Assembly: GCA_022820625.1 (NCBI GenBank)
Contig: JAJEFE010000004.1
Coordinates: 1-64,000 of the forward strand
DNA: 64,000 nucleotides
From: Gammaproteobacteria bacterium
Lineage (GTDB): Bacteria; Pseudomonadota; Gammaproteobacteria; Steroidobacterales; Rariloculaceae
Direction of reading: 5' to 3'
Numbering within the stretch: position 1 is the stretch's first letter; the number at the start of each line of letters is the position of its first letter. Positions 4,896 through 12,040 of this stretch are shown here, piece by piece. A program made the position numbers and the translations under genes. Below the pieces are notes generated by a model. The model ran no database searches, had not been told where the DNA came from, and worked only from the letters and a program-made list of their open reading frames with translations.

Positions 4896-6536
4896 ATGAC
4901 CAAACGCATCCATATTAACCGGCGTAGATTCCTTGCCGGTTCCGCAGGCGCCATGGGGGCGGCGTATTTCGGCAGGTTGCCGCTGGAAGCCATGGCCCAG
5001 GAGCAAGCTCCGACCGATCAGGCATGGGACGCCGGTCTCGTGCGGCATATTATTCCCACGGTCAGCGATACGCGGATTCTGCTCAAGGTCTCGTTCGATC
5101 GGGCGTTGGCGGACGCGCCCGTCTTGCGACTCGAGAACTCCGCCATCGCCGGCAGGATGAGCGACACGGCCGGCGAATACTGGCAGTTCCATGCCGGCCA
5201 GTTGCAGCCGGGGCGTCGCTACACGCTTTCGTTGCAGGACACCAATGGCCAGTCCTTGTGCGAACCCTGGCCGCTCTCCACCTTCCCGTCGCCAACCGCA
5301 GACCCGGAGCGCCTCCGCGTGCTGTTCTATACCTGTGCCGGCGGAACCAGCGGCACCTACGAGGGGATCGGTCAGCGCGAAGGCTTCCTGCCGGCCGGCA
5401 TCCGCAACCGCCTGCTGCGCCGTGCGCTATCGTTTCAACCCGACGCCGCGGTGGCCATCGGCGACCACATGTATTGGGACCTCCACGCCTGGCAGGGCGA
5501 GTACGCCGGGCAATTGAGCGAAGCCGGCCGGATTTCGAACTTCGACTTTTCGGCCAGCGCGCTTGGGGCGAGCAACGAAACGGCGATAAAGGCGGCCGCT
5601 GGCCCGCAAATCGTCCCGATTTACGGGAGCGATTTCCGCTCCACGCCGGTTTTTTTCCTGCAGGACGATCACGACCACTGGGAAAACGACGCGGTCACGG
5701 ACGATTTCGCCAGCTATCCCATCGCCTGGTTCCAGCTTCAGCTTGCGCGGGCGACCCAGCAACTCTACTACCCGGAGTTCCTGCCGGACGCCGGGCGGCC
5801 CGCCGGCCTGCCCTGGTCCTCCGCGGGAGATCGCCGCGACGTGTCGGAGAGCTTCGGCACGCTTCGGTTTGGCCGGCTTGCGGAGATCCTGCTGTACGAC
5901 GTGCGCCGCACCATGAATCTCGCCGGACCGAACGCGCAGTTCGTCGGCCCGCAGGTCGAGCGGTGGTTGATCGACCGCACCCGCTCGTCGGAGGCACGCC
6001 ACCGCGTGCATGTGCCCTCGAATCCGTTCGGCTGGAGTGCCGGCAAATGGGGCGAGTGGTATCCGGACATTCTGGACCCGGAGAGCGGTACGCTGACGAC
6101 CGCCATCGACAAGCCCTATTGGCAGGAGGGCTGGTTGAGGCAGCACGATCGGCTGGCCGAGGCGATGGGTCAGCAGGAAGGCCGGATTCCGTTGCTGGTC
6201 AGCGGCGACCTGCACGCAATCGGCGCCGGGAGAATACACCGCTCCGGAGCCGTCGATCTGCGAGGGAATCCCATGACCGCAGTCCTGAGCGGTCCCATCG
6301 GCACTTCAATCCAGGGATTCCCCTCGGTGATCCGCGGCATCGGTGCGACGCCGCCGGCTCACCTGGACATGGAGGAAACAATGTCGCCCATCGAGGATCA
6401 CGGTTTCACCCTGATCGACTTCCTTCGCGACCGGATCGTGCTGCGGCAGTTTGCCTGGGACGTGGACCGGGAGTCCCTCGATGCCATCGACCGGCTGGAG
6501 CCGATACATACCACGGAACTGGCGCCGGCGGCGTAG
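4896..6536 (+). CDS. PhoD-like Tat-exported metallophosphatase
   Basis: The 546-residue protein begins with a twin-arginine signal (NRRRFLAG then a hydrophobic stretch and AMAQ cleavage), preceded by AGGA. Metal-binding motifs of the PhoD/calcineurin-like superfamily are visible: AIGDHMYWD, the DDHDHWEND block, and SGDLHAIG near the C-terminus. PhoD enzymes are secreted phosphodiesterases or alkaline phosphatases using Fe and Ca. The exact substrate is not readable. It is the last protein gene before the convergent tRNA array. Confidence 0.85.
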   Translation: MTKRIHINRRRFLAGSAGAMGAAYFGRLPLEAMAQEQAPTDQAWDAGLVRHIIPTVSDTRILLKVSFDRALADAPVLRLENSAIAGRMSDTAGEYWQFHAGQLQPGRRYTLSLQDTNGQSLCEPWPLSTFPSPTADPERLRVLFYTCAGGTSGTYEGIGQREGFLPAGIRNRLLRRALSFQPDAAVAIGDHMYWDLHAWQGEYAGQLSEAGRISNFDFSASALGASNETAIKAAAGPQIVPIYGSDFRSTPVFFLQDDHDHWENDAVTDDFASYPIAWFQLQLARATQQLYYPEFLPDAGRPAGLPWSSAGDRRDVSESFGTLRFGRLAEILLYDVRRTMNLAGPNAQFVGPQVERWLIDRTRSSEARHRVHVPSNPFGWSAGKWGEWYPDILDPESGTLTTAIDKPYWQEGWLRQHDRLAEAMGQQEGRIPLLVSGDLHAIGAGRIHRSGAVDLRGNPMTAVLSGPIGTSIQGFPSVIRGIGATPPAHLDMEETMSPIEDHGFTLIDFLRDRIVLRQFAWDVDRESLDAIDRLEPIHTTELAPAA

Positions 6537-6679
6537 CCGGTGTCCCACCGCACCGGCCCGCCGCCGCCCGCAACCGGGCCGCATATGCAGTTTCGCCGAA
6601 CCTGCTCATCGAAACCTTACCCCGGTTCATCATTTCTATGTCATTGACTCCGACAACGTGGATTGTGTTTGGCGGTGGA

Positions 6680-6757
6680 TGGTGCGCGGCCCCCGATTCG
6701 AACGGGGAAGCAGATCGTTTTGAGCGACCCAGGTATGCCAATTCCCGTCAGCCGCGC
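6680..6757 (-). tRNA. tRNA-Leu(CAA), short variable loop
   Basis: Last gene of the array in transcription order. The acceptor pairs over 7 bp, the T-loop is TTCGAAT, the anticodon loop CTCAAAA gives CAA, A73 and CCA are encoded. The D-arm is Leu-like, but the variable region is only 5 nt; bacterial Leu tRNAs normally have a long variable arm. Confidence 0.85.
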
Positions 6758-6765
6758 ACTTGAAA

Positions 6766-6843
6766 TGGTGGCCGCCCTCGGAGTCGAACCGAGAAGCGCC
6801 TGTTTCTAAGACAGGCAGGTATGCCAATTCCCTTCAGACGGCC
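6766..6843 (-). tRNA. tRNA-Leu(UAG), short variable loop
   Basis: Anticodon loop CTTAGAA with a perfect 5-bp stem, A73, CCA encoded. As in the neighbouring Leu(CAA), the D-arm is Leu-like while the variable region is 5 nt. The two Leu genes share D-arm and variable-region sequence and look like duplicates. Confidence 0.87.
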
Positions 6844-6847
6844 GTGA

Positions 6848-6926
6848 TGGCGTCCCCGGCAGGACTAGAACCTGCAACCCCCGGGGTAGAAGCCCGGTGC
6901 TCTGATTCCGATTGAGCTACGGAGAC
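6848..6926 (-). tRNA. tRNA-Arg(UCU)
   Basis: Anticodon loop CTTCTAC, G73, CCA encoded, canonical D-arm. The T-loop is TTCTAGT, so the usual purine at position 57 is U. One base separates it from the next tRNA. Confidence 0.82.
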
Positions 6927-6927
6927 G

Positions 6928-7022
6928 TGGTACCCCAGGCCGGATTCGAACCGGCGACCTGCCGCTTATCTGGCGCATCACGGGGTATAAACCCGCCGCT
7001 CTACCGACTGAGCTACTGGGGC
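6928..7022 (-). tRNA. tRNA-Ile(UAU), extended variable region
   Basis: Acceptor, D-arm (GCTCAGTCGGTAGAGC) and T-arm are canonical. The anticodon loop TTTATAC gives UAU for AUA codons. About 24 nt lie between anticodon stem and T-stem instead of about 5. Bacteria usually read AUA with lysidine-modified CAU, so UAU is unusual. A class II-like arm or an insertion are both possible. Confidence 0.7.
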
Positions 7023-7024
7023 CT

Positions 7025-7092
7025 GGGAGCCTGCGGCGCAGGAAATCGCGATAGCGAATTTGCAGCCGTGATCTCCTTCGGCGCAGGCTCCC
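7025..7092. repeat. 68-bp cruciform-forming spacer inside the array
   Basis: A perfect 11-bp inverted repeat (7025-7035 with 7082-7092) encloses a second hairpin (7043-7061). It is one of two ~70-nt spacers that interrupt otherwise tightly packed tRNAs. It could be an RNase processing hairpin, a REP-like element or a decayed tRNA; no tRNA fold is recoverable. Confidence 0.6.
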
Positions 7093-7095
7093 GTA

Positions 7096-7170
7096 TGGAC
7101 ACGCCGCCCGGATTCGAACCGGGACCTCGAGGGTTGCAACCTCGCGCCTTGCCCGTTTGGCTACGGCGTG
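7096..7170 (-). tRNA. tRNA-Cys(GCA)
   Basis: Anticodon loop TTGCAAC with a perfect stem, U73 (the Cys identity base), CCA encoded, canonical T-loop TTCGAAT. Confidence 0.93.
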
Positions 7171-7175
7171 TGTGT

Positions 7176-7249
7176 TGGCAGGCCGGCGACGATTCGAACG
7201 CCGATTGGCGGGTCTGGAATCCGCAGTCTTGCCATTAGACGACCGGCCT
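7176..7249 (-). tRNA. tRNA-Trp(CCA)
   Basis: Anticodon loop TTCCAGA. A1-U72 and G73, the Trp identity elements in E. coli, are both present. The anticodon stem has a C-A mismatch at the loop end. Confidence 0.82.
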
Positions 7250-7254
7250 GGGGG

Positions 7255-7329
7255 TGGCTCGGCGCCCTGGATTTGAACCAGGTCCCCAAGATTCAAAGTC
7301 TTGTGTCCTGCCGGTTAGACGAACGCCGA
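7255..7329 (-). tRNA. tRNA-Gln(UUG)
   Basis: Anticodon loop CTTTGAA with a perfect stem, U1-A72 and G73 as in E. coli tRNA-Gln, T-loop TTCAAAT, CCA encoded. Confidence 0.92.
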
Positions 7330-7334
7330 ATGGA

Positions 7335-7411
7335 TGGCACGGCTGGGGCGATTCGAACGCCCGTCCTCGACCGTCGCAGGGTCGCGCTCTCGTCCTCTGA
7401 GCTACAGCCGT
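7335..7411 (-). tRNA. tRNA-Arg(GCG)
   Basis: Anticodon loop CTGCGAC with perfect anticodon and acceptor stems, G73, CCA encoded. GCG is unusual because bacteria normally read CGN with an inosine-modified ACG tRNA. Confidence 0.87.
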
Positions 7412-7416
7412 ACGTG

Positions 7417-7492
7417 TGGTTGCCCGAGGCGGTTTCGAACCACCGACATCCGCTTTGTAAGAGCGGCGCTCTGCCATCTGAGCTATCGGGCA
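7417..7492 (-). tRNA. tRNA-Val(UAC)
   Basis: Anticodon loop CTTACAA with a perfect stem, T-loop TTCGAAA, A73, CCA encoded, canonical D-arm. Confidence 0.93.
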
Positions 7493-7496
7493 AACA

Positions 7497-7567
7497 TGGT
7501 AGCGGGGGCCGGATTCGAACCGGCGGAAGCGGGAATATGAACCCCGCGTGAGACCCCCTCCCCCGCA
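7497..7567 (-). tRNA. tRNA-Met(CAU), minimal D-arm
   Basis: Anticodon loop TTCATAT and a normal T-arm with TTCGAAT, A73 and CCA. Positions 8-25 amount to only about 14 nt, with a 3-bp D-stem and a loop of about 5 nt, so the usual GG of the D-loop is reduced. Positions 1 and 72 (U-U) are unpaired and the anticodon stem is G/C-rich, both reminiscent of initiator tRNA. It may be degenerate. Confidence 0.65.
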
Positions 7568-7579
7568 TCGGGACAAGTG

Positions 7580-7655
7580 TGGTGCGGCTGGCCGGTCTCG
7601 AACCGGCGGCCTCGACGTTGGCAACGTCGCGCTCTGCCCGCTGAGCTACAGCCGC
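7580..7655 (-). tRNA. tRNA-Gly(GCC)
   Basis: Anticodon loop TTGCCAA with perfect anticodon, acceptor and T-stems, CCA encoded. The discriminator is A73, where bacterial Gly tRNAs usually have U73. Confidence 0.9.
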
Positions 7656-7669
7656 ATTGCTTACCTGCG

Positions 7670-7743
7670 TGGTCCGCCCTGAGAGAATCGAACTCCCGTC
7701 GCCGGGTTAAAAGCCCGGTGCACGACCACTATGCCAAGAGCGG
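7670..7743 (-). tRNA. tRNA-Lys(UUU)
   Basis: Anticodon loop CTTTTAA with a perfect C/G stem, A73, CCA encoded. The variable region is one or two bases shorter than usual. Confidence 0.9.
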
Positions 7744-7748
7744 ATAAG

Positions 7749-7826
7749 TGGCCTGCCCGGGAAGACTCGAACTCCCGACCTGCTGGTTCGAAGCCAGCCG
7801 CTCTGCTCCTACTGAGCTACGGGCAG
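7749..7826 (-). tRNA. tRNA-Arg(UCG)
   Basis: Anticodon loop CTTCGAA with a perfect stem, perfect acceptor stem, G73, CCA encoded. Confidence 0.92.
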
Positions 7827-7898
7827 GGGCGTGGTGTTGCGGGCAACCGTAAGGCGCCCATTGTTGGCAAGCGAAAAGTGTGCAGTTGCCATTTACAG

Positions 7899-7987
7899 TG
7901 GCGGAGAAGCCTGGATTCGAACCAGGGCAGGACTTGCGCCCCGCTCGTTTAGCAAACGAGTGCCTTAGACCGCTCGGCCACTTCTCC
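7899..7987 (-). tRNA. tRNA-Ser(GCU)
   Basis: A proper class II tRNA with a long variable arm. Anticodon loop TTGCTAA, G1-C72 and G73, CCA encoded. The 72-nt spacer before it (7827-7898) contains a weak hairpin. Confidence 0.93.
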
Positions 7988-7993
7988 GGAAAA

Positions 7994-8070
7994 TGGGGCG
8001 AACCACCGGACTCGAACCGGCATCGGCCAGGGTCACGACCTGGAGCTTTACCAATTAAGCTAGGAACGCC
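7994..8070 (-). tRNA. tRNA-His(GUG), with C33 and acceptor mismatches
   Basis: Anticodon loop TCGTGAC gives GUG, but position 33 is C where U is nearly invariant. C73 and an encoded G at position -1, the His identity pair, are present. The acceptor stem has two adjacent U-U mismatches at pairs 4 and 5. Confidence 0.78.
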
Positions 8071-8076
8071 ATTGTG

Positions 8077-8164
8077 TGGCGGAGGCTGGAGGGATCGAAC
8101 CCCCACGCCCTTCCGGGCATCACGGTTTTCAAGACCGATAAGTACGCCAGCCTTGCGAGCCTCC
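8077..8164 (-). tRNA. tRNA-Ser(UGA)
   Basis: Class II tRNA with a paired long variable arm. Anticodon loop CTTGAAA, perfect acceptor stem, G73, CCA encoded. Confidence 0.92.
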
Positions 8165-8169
8165 GAAGT

Positions 8170-8246
8170 TGGTCTGGAAGGCAGGATTTGAACCTGCGGC
8201 CCCCTGCGTCCAAGGCAGGCGCTCTGCCAGGCTGAGCTACTCCCAG
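8170..8246 (-). tRNA. tRNA-Pro(UGG), copy 1
   Basis: Anticodon loop CTTGGAC with a perfect stem. C1-G72 and A73, typical of bacterial Pro tRNAs, are present. CCA encoded. Confidence 0.92.
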
Positions 8247-8250
8247 AGTG

Positions 8251-8326
8251 TGGTGGACCGGGACCGATTCGAATGGTCGACCGCGCGATTATCGATCGCG
8301 TGCTCTACCTGCTGAGCTACCGGTCC
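8251..8326 (-). tRNA. tRNA-Ile(GAU), with C33
   Basis: Anticodon loop TCGATAA with a perfect stem; position 33 is C, as in the His gene of this array. Acceptor stem perfect, A73, CCA encoded. The T-stem has one mismatch next to the loop. Confidence 0.85.
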
Positions 8327-8327
8327 G

Positions 8328-8403
8328 TGGGGATCCGGACGGGATTCGAACCCGCAATTACGAGGTTGAAAGCCTCGTGGCTTAACCATTCGCCCACCGG
8401 ATC
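8328..8403 (-). tRNA. tRNA-Glu(UUC)
   Basis: Anticodon loop CTTTCAA with perfect anticodon and acceptor stems, CCA encoded. The discriminator is C73 rather than the usual G73. Confidence 0.88.
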
Positions 8404-8410
8404 GTGAAGC

Positions 8411-8486
8411 TGGCGACGCGGACCGGGGTCGAACCGGCACCCTCTGGATCGACAGTCCAGGACTCTGCCTGTTGAGCTACCGCGCC
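8411..8486 (-). tRNA. tRNA-Asp(GUC)
   Basis: Anticodon loop CTGTCGA with a perfect stem, G73 as expected for Asp, CCA encoded. T-loop TTCGACC. It begins the downstream block of 20 tRNAs. Confidence 0.92.
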
Positions 8487-8835
8487 GGGAAATGAACGAC
8501 TGAGACTACATCGTTTCCAGCCACCCTTTGGCGGGAGTACCGGACGCCTTGCCTGGCGACCGTTGCCCGTCTGTCCACGATGGCCCGGCCGAAACCGGCG
8601 CCATCGTAAGCGGCCATGACTGCCTTTTTCAGAGTGTGGCGATTCACTCGTATTGCGCACCTGGTCGGCAGTTCACTTACCGTGAGCCTCGCGGGCTCCG
8701 AATGGGGGCTACCCAACCGTGCGGTGTTCCGCCAAGGTCCGTCCGCTTGCGGCTTCGGGACCGCCGAATTGCCCGGAGGCTTCGGCCTTAAGCCACTTCT
8801 CGGTACGCACCGGGACGCGTCTTTGCGTTTAGTCC
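8487..8835. other. Large spacer in the tRNA array, no gene recognised
   Basis: About 350 bases between tRNA-Asp and the second tRNA-Pro. Open frames here lack start signals and protein-like composition. No tRNA fold is visible on either strand. It could be the site of a decayed block of tRNAs or an insertion. Confidence 0.55.
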
Positions 8836-8907
8836 TGGTTGCCATTACCGGACTCGAACCGGCGCCATCGCTTCCAAGGCGACGCTCTACCACTGAGCTA
8901 AACAGCA
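8836..8907 (-). tRNA. tRNA-Pro(UGG)-like, copy 2, divergent
   Basis: Anticodon loop CTTGGAA gives UGG. T-loop TTCGAGT, canonical D-arm, A73 and CCA. The acceptor stem starts with U1-A72 and has wobble pairs, so it lacks the Pro identity pair seen in copy 1, and the variable region is only 3 nt. It stands alone between two large spacers. The amino acid it accepts is uncertain. Confidence 0.75.
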
Positions 8908-9384
8908 AGAACCCCATTTCGACGTGCGCGCCCCGGTCGCTTCGCCGCCTTTTGGGCCGCGAAATACGACACGCCGACTGTCGTTCCCCTACCGGGTACT
9001 TGACCGAGTGCCAGGACGCCGGCTGCGCACCGGAACCCCGAAACTCTGCGCGCTCGCGCTCGCTTGTAAGGCTCGCACTATCGCGCACTACCCGTTGCCC
9101 TTCACGGTTGACGATGTCGGTACCGCGGGTTGCACCACCACGTGTTCTTTCACGAGCCTGCATTCCCGGCAGAGCCGGTGCTTGAGCCACGCTACTTCCG
9201 CGCATCGCTTGGCCGCTATCCCCGCCGGTCTCCCGGCGAGGACAAGAGGGTCGGGCCTGCCTGGATTGACCGAACCCGAAAGTTCGGCGGGACGCCATGG
9301 GTCACGCCCCTTTCCCGCCGTTACCGACGGTTATCGGCGCCAGGCCGCAAGTCACCGCACCGGCCGAAGCCGGGGCCGTGAGGT
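8908..9384. other. Large spacer in the tRNA array, no gene recognised
   Basis: About 480 bases between the isolated Pro tRNA and tRNA-Ala. Several short G/C-rich inverted repeats occur, but nothing resembling a tRNA, protein gene or mobile element. Confidence 0.55.
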
Positions 9385-9460
9385 TGGTGGAGGACCGCGG
9401 ATTCAAACCGCGCACCTTCCGGTTGCAAACCGGATGTTCTGTCCACTGAACTAGTCCCCC
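9385..9460 (-). tRNA. tRNA-Ala(UGC)
   Basis: Anticodon loop TTTGCAA with a perfect stem, A73, CCA encoded. The acceptor stem carries the G3-U70 wobble pair, the main alanine identity element. Confidence 0.93.
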
Positions 9461-9466
9461 GCTGAC

Positions 9467-9541
9467 TGGCTGGCACGGCTGGATTCGAACCCGCATCGTC
9501 CCGGTTAACAGCCGGGCGCTCTACCGTTGAGCTACATGCCA
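9467..9541 (-). tRNA. tRNA-Asn(GUU)
   Basis: Anticodon loop CTGTTAA with a perfect stem, U1-A72 and G73 as in E. coli tRNA-Asn, CCA encoded. One mismatch in the T-stem. Confidence 0.9.
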
Positions 9542-9543
9542 CC

Positions 9544-9619
9544 TGGTGGATCGGGAAGGAGTCGAACCTCCGCTGCGCCGGGCTTCAACCGACCGCTCTG
9601 CCGTCTGAGCTACCGATCC
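9544..9619 (-). tRNA. tRNA-Phe(GAA)
   Basis: Anticodon loop TTGAAGC, perfect acceptor stem, A73, CCA encoded, T-loop TTCGACT. Confidence 0.92.
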
Positions 9620-9624
9620 GATTT

Positions 9625-9709
9625 TGGTGGAGGGAGCAGGAGTTGAACCTGCAAAGCCCGAAGGGCGCCTGGGTTACAACCAGGGTATCTCGCCAATGAA
9701 TGCCCCTCC
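9625..9709 (-). tRNA. tRNA-Tyr(GUA)
   Basis: Class II tRNA with a paired variable arm, as normal for bacterial Tyr. Anticodon loop TTGTAAC with a perfect stem, A73, CCA encoded. Confidence 0.93.
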
Positions 9710-9714
9710 GAATC

Positions 9715-9790
9715 TGGAGCTGACGACAGGCATCGAACCTGCAACCCACTGCTTACAAGACAGTTGCTCTGCCATTTGAGCTACGTCAGC
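9715..9790 (-). tRNA. tRNA-Thr(UGU)
   Basis: First tRNA of the array in transcription order. Anticodon loop CTTGTAA, perfect acceptor stem, U73, CCA encoded. The leader lies immediately upstream. Confidence 0.92.
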
Positions 9791-9885
9791 CAGGGTGTCG
9801 GAGCAGGCGCTTGGGCGCACCGCAGGGTCTGCGGCCGCTCCGCACCACGCGAAGCACTGCCCCGACACACTTCACACAATCCACG

Positions 9886-9897
9886 TTGTTAAAGATC
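9886..9897 (-). promoter_or_regulatory. rrn-type boxA antitermination element
   Basis: On the minus strand this reads GATCTTTAACAA, matching the core CTTTAACAA of rRNA-operon boxA, which recruits NusB/NusE and protects long untranslated transcripts from Rho. It sits about 95 nt before the first tRNA, where such an element is expected for a 3-kb untranslated RNA. Confidence 0.7.
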
Positions 9898-9911
9898 GTC
9901 CACCGGGGCAC

Positions 9912-9944
9912 AAAAAAACCCTGGTGGTTCCGAACCGACCAGGG
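9912..9944 (-). terminator. Intrinsic terminator in the tRNA-array leader (attenuator-like)
   Basis: Minus-strand stem CCCTGGT/ACCAGGG (9938-9944 with 9919-9925) with an additional GGTT/AACC inner pairing, followed by seven T. The 3' part of an upstream element (9954-9959, GACCAG) can pair with CTGGTC at 9937-9942, which would exclude the terminator stem. Its position between promoter and tRNAs suggests attenuation; it could instead end a separate short RNA. Confidence 0.75.
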
Positions 9945-10182
9945 CTTTGGTAGCTGGTCTGGAGGGTTCGTTTTGTCAGCCCTCCAGAACGGTTTTCCGG
10001 AGAGGCTTAACGCATGAGTCCACCATGATCAAACTCATACGAATCCACGCTAATGCGGGTTGTCGTCTGCCGATTCCTCGCACACGGGAGCCCGTCGCTG
10101 GCTATCGCCACGACCGCTTGCCCGGCCGATGAGGCGCCGGCGGCTTCAGACAATCTGAGTTGTATGGATTTCCAAATCATGG
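9912..10182 (-). ncRNA. Leader RNA of the tRNA array (or a separate small RNA)
   Basis: About 270 nt from the predicted start site to the terminator. It contains an 8-bp hairpin (9959-9966 with 9980-9987), the antiterminator/terminator pair, and a 20-codon ORF (9976-10038) whose stop lies inside the first hairpin. That ORF has no strong ribosome-binding site and no run of repeated codons. A 14-nt stretch at 10023-10036 equals the conserved start of 16S rRNA (GAGTTTGATCATGG). No known small RNA family was recognised. Confidence 0.5.
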
Positions 10183-10188
10183 GCGCGC

Positions 10189-10216
10189 AGTATACTCGCC
10201 TTTCTCCCCGTGTCAA
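10189..10216 (-). promoter_or_regulatory. Strong stable-RNA-type sigma-70 promoter for the tRNA array
   Basis: Minus strand: perfect -35 TTGACA (10211-10216), 16-nt spacer, -10 TATACT (10189-10194), followed by the G+C-rich discriminator GCGCGCCC. Such discriminators are typical of stringently controlled rRNA and tRNA promoters. It points at the leader and the 26 tRNA genes. Confidence 0.78.
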
Positions 10217-10351
10217 CACTTAATCGGAACATTCGGTTCACAAAATCGGAACTACCGATTGATGGTAGCCCGTGGCGCGAATCCCAGGGCGTGCCGAGGC
10301 CGGCGGGAGGTCAGGAAGGATGCCCGGCGGCGAGACCCGTGCAAATGGCCG

Positions 10352-10774
10352 CTACGGCTTTCGAACCGTTTCGGGCCGCGATTCACGCACCGACTTGAGC
10401 CAGGACGCCAGATTCCTCTCCTGCTCCGGGGTCAAGTCGAGCGCGCCAGCCATGAAGGCGATCGTGTCGATCACCCGCGCCCGAATCGCCGGGCCTATTT
10501 TTTCGTCGGGCCGCGGGCTGCCTTCTCCGAACAGCAGCCACTGCGGCGTCACGTGCGTTGCCTCCGCGATCGCGATCATGAGCTTGAGGTTCGGGTTGAC
10601 CGGTTCCGAGGTTTCCAGACGGTGCAATCCCGTCTTCGACAGGTTGATTCCCATTTGGGCGAGAATCTTCCTCAGTTCAGCCGGCGCAAGCCCCGAGCGG
10701 TCCCGGGCGTCGCGGATGCGGTTGGAAATGCTGTCGTTCGCGGGTCGAAGCCTGTCGTAGCTTTTTCTCGCCAT
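10352..10774 (-). CDS. XRE-family transcriptional regulator
   Basis: The 140-residue protein carries a helix-turn-helix of the Cro/CI type in its first half (SISNRIRDARDRSG, then the recognition region SKTGLHRLE), followed by a LxxMIAIAEATHVTPQWLLFGEG segment typical of XRE repressors. The C-terminal ~45 residues are a short alpha-helical tail without a recognised domain. The ATG at 10774 is chosen because it starts the conserved part; there is no good Shine-Dalgarno, and a GTG at 10813 is possible. It is the nearest protein gene upstream of the tRNA-array promoter and on the same strand, so it could regulate the array, but no operator was identified. Confidence 0.8.
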   Translation of the reverse strand: MARKSYDRLRPANDSISNRIRDARDRSGLAPAELRKILAQMGINLSKTGLHRLETSEPVNPNLKLMIAIAEATHVTPQWLLFGEGSPRPDEKIGPAIRARVIDTIAFMAGALDLTPEQERNLASWLKSVRESRPETVRKP

Positions 10775-11010
10775 GCACAGGAGGATATGACACGCAGGCG
10801 CCGAACAAAACACTTGCGGTAGCGCCTGGCTCGCCGCTGTCAGTACAGGCGATCAACCAACTCCATGAGCCCGACGCTTCGTCGCAATCATTGCGCCCAA
10901 CCGCCTGTCCATCTCTTGAACGCCGATAAACCTGCCCTTGCGTCGGCGCGACAACAATTCGCGCAACGCCGCCGATTCCTTCCCATCGGCCGGGACCGCG
11001 CCACGTTCTG

Positions 11011-11871
11011 TCAGCTCTGGTTCCATTCCACGGGTTCGGCATTCGGGTGCTCGGGTTCGTAGTACCAACGCAAACCCAGCGGTTCCTCGCTGAGGACGTT
11101 GGTCTTGAAGCTTCTCCAGGCCTGGATCTCGAAGTAGTCCAGGGGGCCATCCAGGGCGCGAAGGCGATGGGGTACGCCGGAGGGAAAATACACCAGCGTG
11201 CCTGGCTCGATTTCCTGCACATCGCCTTCCACCTCGACGACGCCGCGGCCCTTGAAGGTCATGTAGCAGTGCGCCGGGCCGTCGGGATTGGCATCGGTTC
11301 CCACGTGGGAATGGTAGGGTGACGACCCGCCGTCGATGTAGTGCATTTCACCCGCCTGTATGGCGTTGGTTGGCGTTAGGCGGCTGCCATCCAGCAGGCG
11401 CACGCTGGACTCGGCGCAGAACCGGCGTACCCGGCCGCCGCTGGCATCGCTGAGCACCCGAAGCGTCCCTCGATCGAAGAAGTATCCGGGGCCGCCGGGC
11501 AAGCCATCTTCAACCGCCGCGGGTGGCTCGGGAACTACCATGTGGAGTAGCTCCACACTGGTTCCCGATGCATCGAACCGAGCCGGTTCGTGAGGCGCCA
11601 GAAGGACGCCCGCGCCTTGCCCGGCGCGGTGAGTCTCGCCTCCGTAATCCACGAAACAACTGACCGGATCGTTCATGACGTACAGGACGTGATAGAAATC
11701 GCCTGCTTGAACGTCAAACTCTCGACCCGGCAGGACGGTTCGCCTGTAAACGGTCAGCGTTTGCGAACCGCAAATGCCGGGACTGCACAGTTTGCGCCGC
11801 ACTCCGGATGGGACGGACTCTGGCTTTGCCATATTCGAATCGATGATGTGAATGTCCTGGATGCTTGCCAT
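11011..11871 (-). CDS. Bicupin protein, possible dioxygenase-associated enzyme
   Basis: The 286-residue cytoplasmic protein has two cupin domains. The C-terminal one shows YHSHVG with two candidate metal-binding His, and a closing GVPHRL; the N-terminal one retains a cupin-like glycine pattern but fewer metal ligands. The ATG at 11871 is preceded by AGG and begins the conserved region. It is divergent from the LigAB-type dioxygenase genes at 12041, which suggests a role in the same aromatic or hydroxy-acid pathway. Exact reaction unknown. Confidence 0.75.
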   Translation of the reverse strand: MASIQDIHIIDSNMAKPESVPSGVRRKLCSPGICGSQTLTVYRRTVLPGREFDVQAGDFYHVLYVMNDPVSCFVDYGGETHRAGQGAGVLLAPHEPARFDASGTSVELLHMVVPEPPAAVEDGLPGGPGYFFDRGTLRVLSDASGGRVRRFCAESSVRLLDGSRLTPTNAIQAGEMHYIDGGSSPYHSHVGTDANPDGPAHCYMTFKGRGVVEVEGDVQEIEPGTLVYFPSGVPHRLRALDGPLDYFEIQAWRSFKTNVLSEEPLGLRWYYEPEHPNAEPVEWNQS

Positions 11872-12040
11872 TTTTGCCTGGACCTCGAACTTACTGGTGC
11901 GGGCTGTTGTCTCGGCTGTTCCTGCCGCGCCCCCATCAAGTCGTGATGGTACCAACCGCAAGGATTGGTGTCCCGCCGATTCACTCGCATATGATATCGA
12001 TGTGTCTTGGTACTCTCCCGGATTACGTTAGATTGGGCAA

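Follow-up and report, generated by a model that had tools for sequence, protein, structure and literature searches.

Attenuators of the his and trp type are off when translation of their leader is absent. In the PA5471.1-armZ leader of Pseudomonas aeruginosa, full translation of the leader leads to termination, and expression is turned on when the leader is deleted or carries an early amber codon, when ribosomes are inhibited, or when the CCA-adding enzyme is lost; ArmZ itself is RtcB-like (PMC12057347, PMC13041342). Anabaena carries an extra operon of 26 tRNAs, the trn operon, which stays silent until translational stress and belongs to the TrcR regulon, together with rtcB, slipin and HNH genes (PMC10272220).

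The window analysed here, a stretch of 64,000 nucleotides from a 4.56-Mb draft genome (95% complete), carries on its minus strand a tRNA array behind a leader of its own. A literature search yielded no description of such a leader, or of a combination of attenuator and boxA for tRNA arrays, and no family in Rfam 15 matches the leader. The leader is real and more than a chance arrangement, because it is conserved in relatives (covariance model R1 detects it in 21 of the 396 genomes sampled from the order) and its helices covary. We consider it likely to be a ribosome-controlled attenuator that fails in the ON state when translation fails. A first-pass annotation had already proposed an attenuator that decides whether polymerase enters the array, followed by a boxA; this outline stands, while the mechanism given was wrong or incomplete, lacking the competition of hairpin 1:2 with 2:3 and of 3:4a with the terminator. 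The 57-codon ORF, the competing hairpin 1:2 at its stop, the 16-bp leader-trailer helix and the GOLLD RNA had escaped that annotation. The features, all on the minus strand, are as follows.

10352..10813 (-), gene for a small HTH regulator, 153 aa in the ORF call, just upstream; DicA/phage-repressor-like HTH
10236..10252 (-), palindrome GTTCCGATTTTGTGAAC ahead of the -35 box (read directly)
10216-10211 and 10194-10189 (-), -35 and -10 boxes of a sigma-70-type promoter, TTGACA-16-TATACT, matching the consensus at 11 of 12 positions
10007..10180 (-), leader ORF of 57 codons plus TAA (MIWKSIQLRLSEAAGASSAGQAVVAIASDGLPCARNRQTTTRISVDSYEFDHGGLMR), with all 20 amino acids present
9975..10011 (-), hairpin 1:2, its 5' strand beginning within the stop codon; -18.5 kcal/mol, z -3.5
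9958..9988 (-), hairpin 2:3 (TCTGGAGGG / CCCTCCAGA), exclusive with 1:2
9931..9970 (-), antiterminator 3:4a (CGAACC..CCAG with CTGG..GGTTCG), incompatible with both 2:3 and the terminator
9912..9944 (-), intrinsic terminator 4a:4b (CCCTGGT C GGTT CGG AACC ACCAGGG T7), -18.9 kcal/mol; stem 9944-9919, T7 9918-9912
9886..9897 (-), boxA GATCTTTAACAA, 20 nt past the terminator (read directly)
9874..9889 (-), leader strand of a leader-trailer helix (ACAACGTGGATTGTGT, boxC-like end); 16-bp perfect complement
9793..9873 (-), branched hairpin domain (GTGTCGGGGC..GCTCCGACAC) separating boxA from the first tRNA (from folding)
6680..9790 (-), tRNA array, its 26 genes together serving all 20 amino acids; one gene lies inside GOLLD (ARAGORN, Rfam)
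8497..9384 (-), GOLLD RNA within the array, made up of a conserved 3' domain, 8497-8977 (Rfam RF02032), and a probable 5' domain, 8978-9384, whose extent is taken from position
6653..6668 (-), trailer-side partner (ACACAATCCACGTTGT) of 9874..9889 in the leader-trailer helix, past the last tRNA

The promoter, with a G+C discriminator GCGCGCCC directly 3' of the -10 box and the ATG thereafter, had been recognised in the first-pass annotation, and the promoter scan bears it out as the only minus-strand promoter-like site in 6000-12000. Most homologous leaders have an exact TTGACA and a spacer of 16 nt. The upstream HTH regulator matches PHROG repressor families (E 1e-9) and, weakly, the NCBIfam DicA subfamily, and G025 carries a 58% identical homologue at the equivalent position. 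The palindrome GTTCCGATTTTGTGAAC is possibly the operator of this regulator, and GTTC..GAAC elements stand at the corresponding place in relatives having the HTH gene. Control might thus be exerted mainly at the promoter, by the HTH protein acting on the palindrome, with the leader setting a constant ratio, and the conservation of gene and palindrome upstream in several families, as well as the repressor control of the Anabaena tRNA operon (PMC10272220), speak for such an arrangement; yet G097, G201, G209, G106 and others keep the attenuator where no palindrome is seen by eye, and we regard this explanation as most unlikely. Control in two layers, by HTH protein at the promoter and by the attenuator behind it, is possible.

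The leader had at first been taken for an untranslated one of the stable-RNA type, a view that has to be abandoned, as most of the region is a short, apparently leaderless ORF whose stop is fixed at a hairpin in about 30 loci. In the window, the ATG at 10180 lies 8 nt past the -10 box and the TAA at 10009-10007 lies inside the first hairpin. About 24 of the 29 leaders in the promoter table, all of them from the order of the window or from G487/G607, likewise have the ATG 7-10 nt past the -10 box, as does G632 on reading; therefore the mRNA would be leaderless, with transcription starting 0-3 nt before the ATG. Leaderless initiation is not universal, because longer 5' UTRs precede the ORF in the f17 and f79 genomes and in G591. 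All 30 tabulated leaders have their stop codon at the base of the first hairpin, and in G591, on reading, the segment 1 strand lies just ahead of the stop codon. For ten lineages, treated as independent, a first in-frame stop at the hairpin base would arise by chance with a probability of about 10^-17. From this fixed position at about 30 loci it follows that the switch is most likely operated by ribosomes. Distant pairs of the home family give dN/dS values of 0.4-0.8. From one family to another the leader peptides bear no relation, yet the hairpins and the place of the stop are retained; the reading frame is preserved more strictly than the peptide. A leaderless ORF serving as the sensor would be an unusual feature. 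Within the ORF, at 10033-10046 (-), the sequence GAGTTTGATCATGG resembles the 5' start of 16S rRNA; an origin from 16S was considered and set aside, as relatives alter this sequence freely, and the likeness, which is not conserved among them, was treated as chance.

Behind the promoter and the ORF follow four mutually exclusive segments: segment 1 at the stop codon, segments 2 and 3, and segment 4a/4b, which makes up the terminator. They are so arranged that the stop overlaps the first strand, that 2 can pair with either 1 or 3, and that 4a can pair either with 3 or, as terminator, with 4b. The terminator had been noted earlier from its CCCTGGT/ACCAGGG arms with seven T, and both its stability and its covariation uphold it; a strict terminator scan of the window missed it at 9944-9912, presumably due to the bulged C in its stem. 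The earlier proposal of GACCAG:CTGGTC as the antiterminator fared less well: the pairing can form, but only the home family and G056 show it clearly, and there we retain it solely as an addition, whereas all families conserve CGAACC..CCAG with CTGG..GGTTCG. All four helices covary, the terminator included, and their observed scores were reached by 0/500 shuffles. Only 2:3 and the terminator served to fit the alignment, so that 1:2 and 3:4a are independent of the fit. For 2:3, to which the alignment was thus fitted, 97.6% of cells are paired and 8 of 9 pairs show two-sided changes; 7 of the 8 pairs of 1:2 covary; and 3:4a, left out of the fitting, has two-sided changes in 7 pairs (0/500 shuffles). 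Cells changed on both sides number 18 for 1:2 and 15 for 3:4a, the covariation scores of both helices being reached by 0/500 shuffles.

The folding of both leader states, suggested in the first-pass annotation as a check, agrees with this arrangement. When the transcript is folded before 4b exists, a free segment 1 gives 1:2 with 3:4a at nearly all loci and a masked segment 1 favours 2:3 at nearly all loci; in the window, the unconstrained computed fold is the ON state and the masked fold the OFF state. Exceptions are G097 and G086, predicted to form 2:3 even without a ribosome, and some loci, e.g. G487 and G607, at which masking is incomplete. At equilibrium 1:2 with the terminator is usually favoured over the antiterminated fold, by 1-6 kcal/mol, and the antiterminator must therefore act kinetically. 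Formation of the terminator upon full translation of the leader is predicted by these folds.

The following course of events would accommodate the ORF, the helices and their covariation, the reuse of the module and the boxA contrast described below, all of them read from sequence. With transcription beginning 0-3 nt before the ATG, a ribosome could load at once; having finished the 57 codons and parked at the stop, it would cover segment 1, whereupon 2:3 would pair and the terminator form ahead of boxA (OFF). Should translation not start, or stall within the ORF for want of intact, charged tRNAs or through inhibition of the ribosome, 1:2 would form and segment 3 would capture 4a as antiterminator, letting polymerase pass (ON). 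We infer that polymerase past the terminator would then pick up Nus factors at boxA and transcribe the untranslated tRNA/GOLLD operon. The two ends of this transcript would pair as a leader-trailer helix of the rrn kind, and the operon would yield a spare set of tRNAs for all 20 amino acids.

The boxA had been described as of rrn type, and it is indeed present at 9897-9886. Past the terminator, a boxA is found in 19 of the 23 leaders before tRNA genes (18 by script, that of G001 by eye) and in 0 before protein genes. The gap of 20 nt between terminator and boxA leaves no room for a promoter. The boxA lies in the transcribed leader and a leader-trailer helix embraces the operon, as in rrn-type antitermination; equivalent compensated helices of 21-26 nt, with strands 4.9-6.1 kb apart, exist in G097, G126 and G025, whereas a search for the helix in G014/G017 did not find it. 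The branched domain has similar counterparts in several relatives. No 16S rRNA was found in the home genome (95%-complete draft), and the comparison of boxA with an rrn leader was made by eye in G056, which alone has a 16S gene beside its array. In that genome (L021 1-4300) about 2.3 kb separate the array from the 16S rRNA gene downstream, and a tyrS-like gene occupies part of this interval.

An ORF with its own promoter and terminator could also be an ordinary small-protein gene or a small RNA, the array then being transcribed from elsewhere or by leaky read-through, and dN/dS values below 1 in distant f1 pairs would suit a protein. We consider this quite unlikely: peptides unrelated between families go with a kept stop and kept hairpins, boxA follows the T-run by 20 nt while no second minus-strand promoter-like site was found in 6000-12000, the module is reused ahead of a coherent set of genes, and a covarying competition of 1:2 with 2:3 is nothing a plain terminator needs. 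In PHROGs the leader had no family match and no residues are conserved between families, so that its listing as a small-protein gene was dropped.

The operon behind the presumed attenuator looks like an extra tRNA set, because the genome has 63 tRNA matches in all. Its GOLLD part scores 113.4 bits (E 3e-30) over the full length of the RF02032 model, short of the gathering cut-off of 150, and we take it for a divergent GOLLD-like RNA; such RNAs are found in nine genomes of the order, including that of the window. The tRNA-like gene inside GOLLD switches identity among relatives (Pro, Ser, Gly), which would suit a structural element better than a tRNA used in decoding. In G014, G017, G001 and G056 the leader runs straight into a GOLLD-like RNA and not into tRNAs; a GOLLD-specific role of the leader was considered and discarded, as many homologous leaders occur without GOLLD. 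Phage and plasmid collections gave tRNA matches only, and viral contigs searched for the terminator pattern gave no match.

A look for the same leader before arrays in related genomes, likewise suggested at the outset, was successful. Exact pattern matches among relatives fall on gammaproteobacterial MAG contigs. Leader DNA with 76-92% identity over 229-465 bp occurs in five relatives, and the same plan with diverged sequence stands ahead of arrays in G126, G097 and G025. In the class sample, model R1 found the module in 7 of 369 genomes, other orders included, and a second covariance model, R2, added a few loci; R2 matches weaker than about E 1e-6 resemble general hairpin-terminators, several of them matching both strands, and were not used. 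The module also stands before protein genes, namely RtcB (G591), slipin (G110, after a tRNA, and G396c), HNH (G396 and G553b), EF-G (G632) and, in five genomes, ABC_membrane_3 or similar genes. Slipin genes lie within the arrays of G025, G097, G126, G209, G106 and others, some of which also hold HNH or RtcB. RtcB was looked for and not found in the 95%-complete home draft, so that the link to repair operons holds via the relatives. Further observations concern the neighbourhood of these modules: G396 has tandem attenuator copies before one operon (L088 1524-1660 and 1862-2000; L084 2113-2530); a protein of about 310 aa without Pfam/NCBIfam match recurs beside RtcB or arrays (L037:871-1812, L069:2707-3639, L085:2877-3824), with N-termini similar by eye; and EF-G paralogues lie near or directly under the attenuator (L085, L153), after RtcB in G591 and as the first gene in G632.

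R2 also matches the his attenuator of G1088 (L154 1084-1182), where the leader MILTNLKAVHHHHHIA stands before hisG, and therefore some resemblance may reflect shared topology, not descent. This related topology speaks for an attenuator of the opposite sense, or for one answering a single amino acid as the trp and his leaders do. The leader ORFs, however, contain no codon runs for one amino acid such as mark his and trp attenuators, folding assigns the terminator to the state with the ribosome at the stop, and the genes downstream are tRNAs and translation or repair genes, not biosynthetic ones; we thus hold this explanation to be very unlikely, and a general response to failing translation remains the preferred reading.

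Peptides with all 20 amino acids are encoded in the leaders of the window, G001, G005, G025, G097 (44 residues), G126, G317, G396, G553b and G693a; most leader peptides of tRNA operons use 18-20 amino acids and some leaders only 16-17. Compared with random ORFs, tRNA and related leaders hold 1.2-1.6 more amino acids on average (14 clusters, z 3.7-4.8) and leaders before other protein genes show no clear excess (three clusters, z 1.0-1.7), in a test devised post hoc, after the sequences had been seen, with clusters of our own grouping. The leader peptide might be a roll-call of the genetic code: with nearly every amino acid present at least once, the ribosome would stall whenever almost any tRNA is scarce or damaged, and the replacement operon of GOLLD and tRNAs for all 20 amino acids would be released. 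We put this forward tentatively and with less than even confidence, because the idea is post hoc, the clusters are self-grouped and some leaders use only 16-17 amino acids.

Large extra tRNA arrays with GOLLD, an RNA of unknown function, would on the preferred reading be made upon translation failure, a concrete and testable answer to the question of when they are expressed. One cis-acting switch would tie together tRNA arrays and RtcB, slipin, HNH and EF-G genes of Gammaproteobacteria, in parallel to the repressor regulon of cyanobacteria, and the P. aeruginosa armZ leader, through which a drug efflux pump is controlled, may belong to a wider class of such leaders.

Among the known systems, the Anabaena TrcR regulon matches the module in its gene set of tRNA arrays, RtcB, slipin and HNH, but is controlled by a ribbon-helix-helix repressor, and the words attenuation and leader are absent from the main text of its description (PMC10272220). 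Mycobacterial arrays similarly hold GOLLD and a tRNA-like gene within a tRNA cluster having an HNH gene, and the part of the text available to us mentions no comparable leader (PMC6582537). According to the available part of another text, the whiB7 and toiL uORFs are likewise short ORFs that sense general translation stress, toiL acting, unlike the leader described here, via the ribosome-binding site and Rho; that part mentions control of tRNAs for neither (PMC12121999). The frame of the operon is like that of an rrn leader, in which boxA is followed by the strand closing a long helix around a stable-RNA insert, except that the insert here consists of tRNAs and GOLLD and an ORF-bearing attenuator precedes boxA (PMC10250234). 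As in the his and trp attenuators, the position of the ribosome would pick among alternating hairpins and a terminator, while a run of control codons is absent here and absent translation would lead to ON. Closest in mechanism appears to be PA5471.1-armZ, to which we liken the leader for its ORF, competing segments, terminator and polarity; the window-type ORF, in contrast, is usually and apparently leaderless and 36-63 codons long, what it would control is a tRNA/GOLLD array provided with a boxA and a leader-trailer helix, and the module stands before several types of gene. Ribosome-mediated attenuation of this polarity is thus already known, and the new points are the tRNA array as its target, the apparently leaderless sensor and the rrn-like frame.
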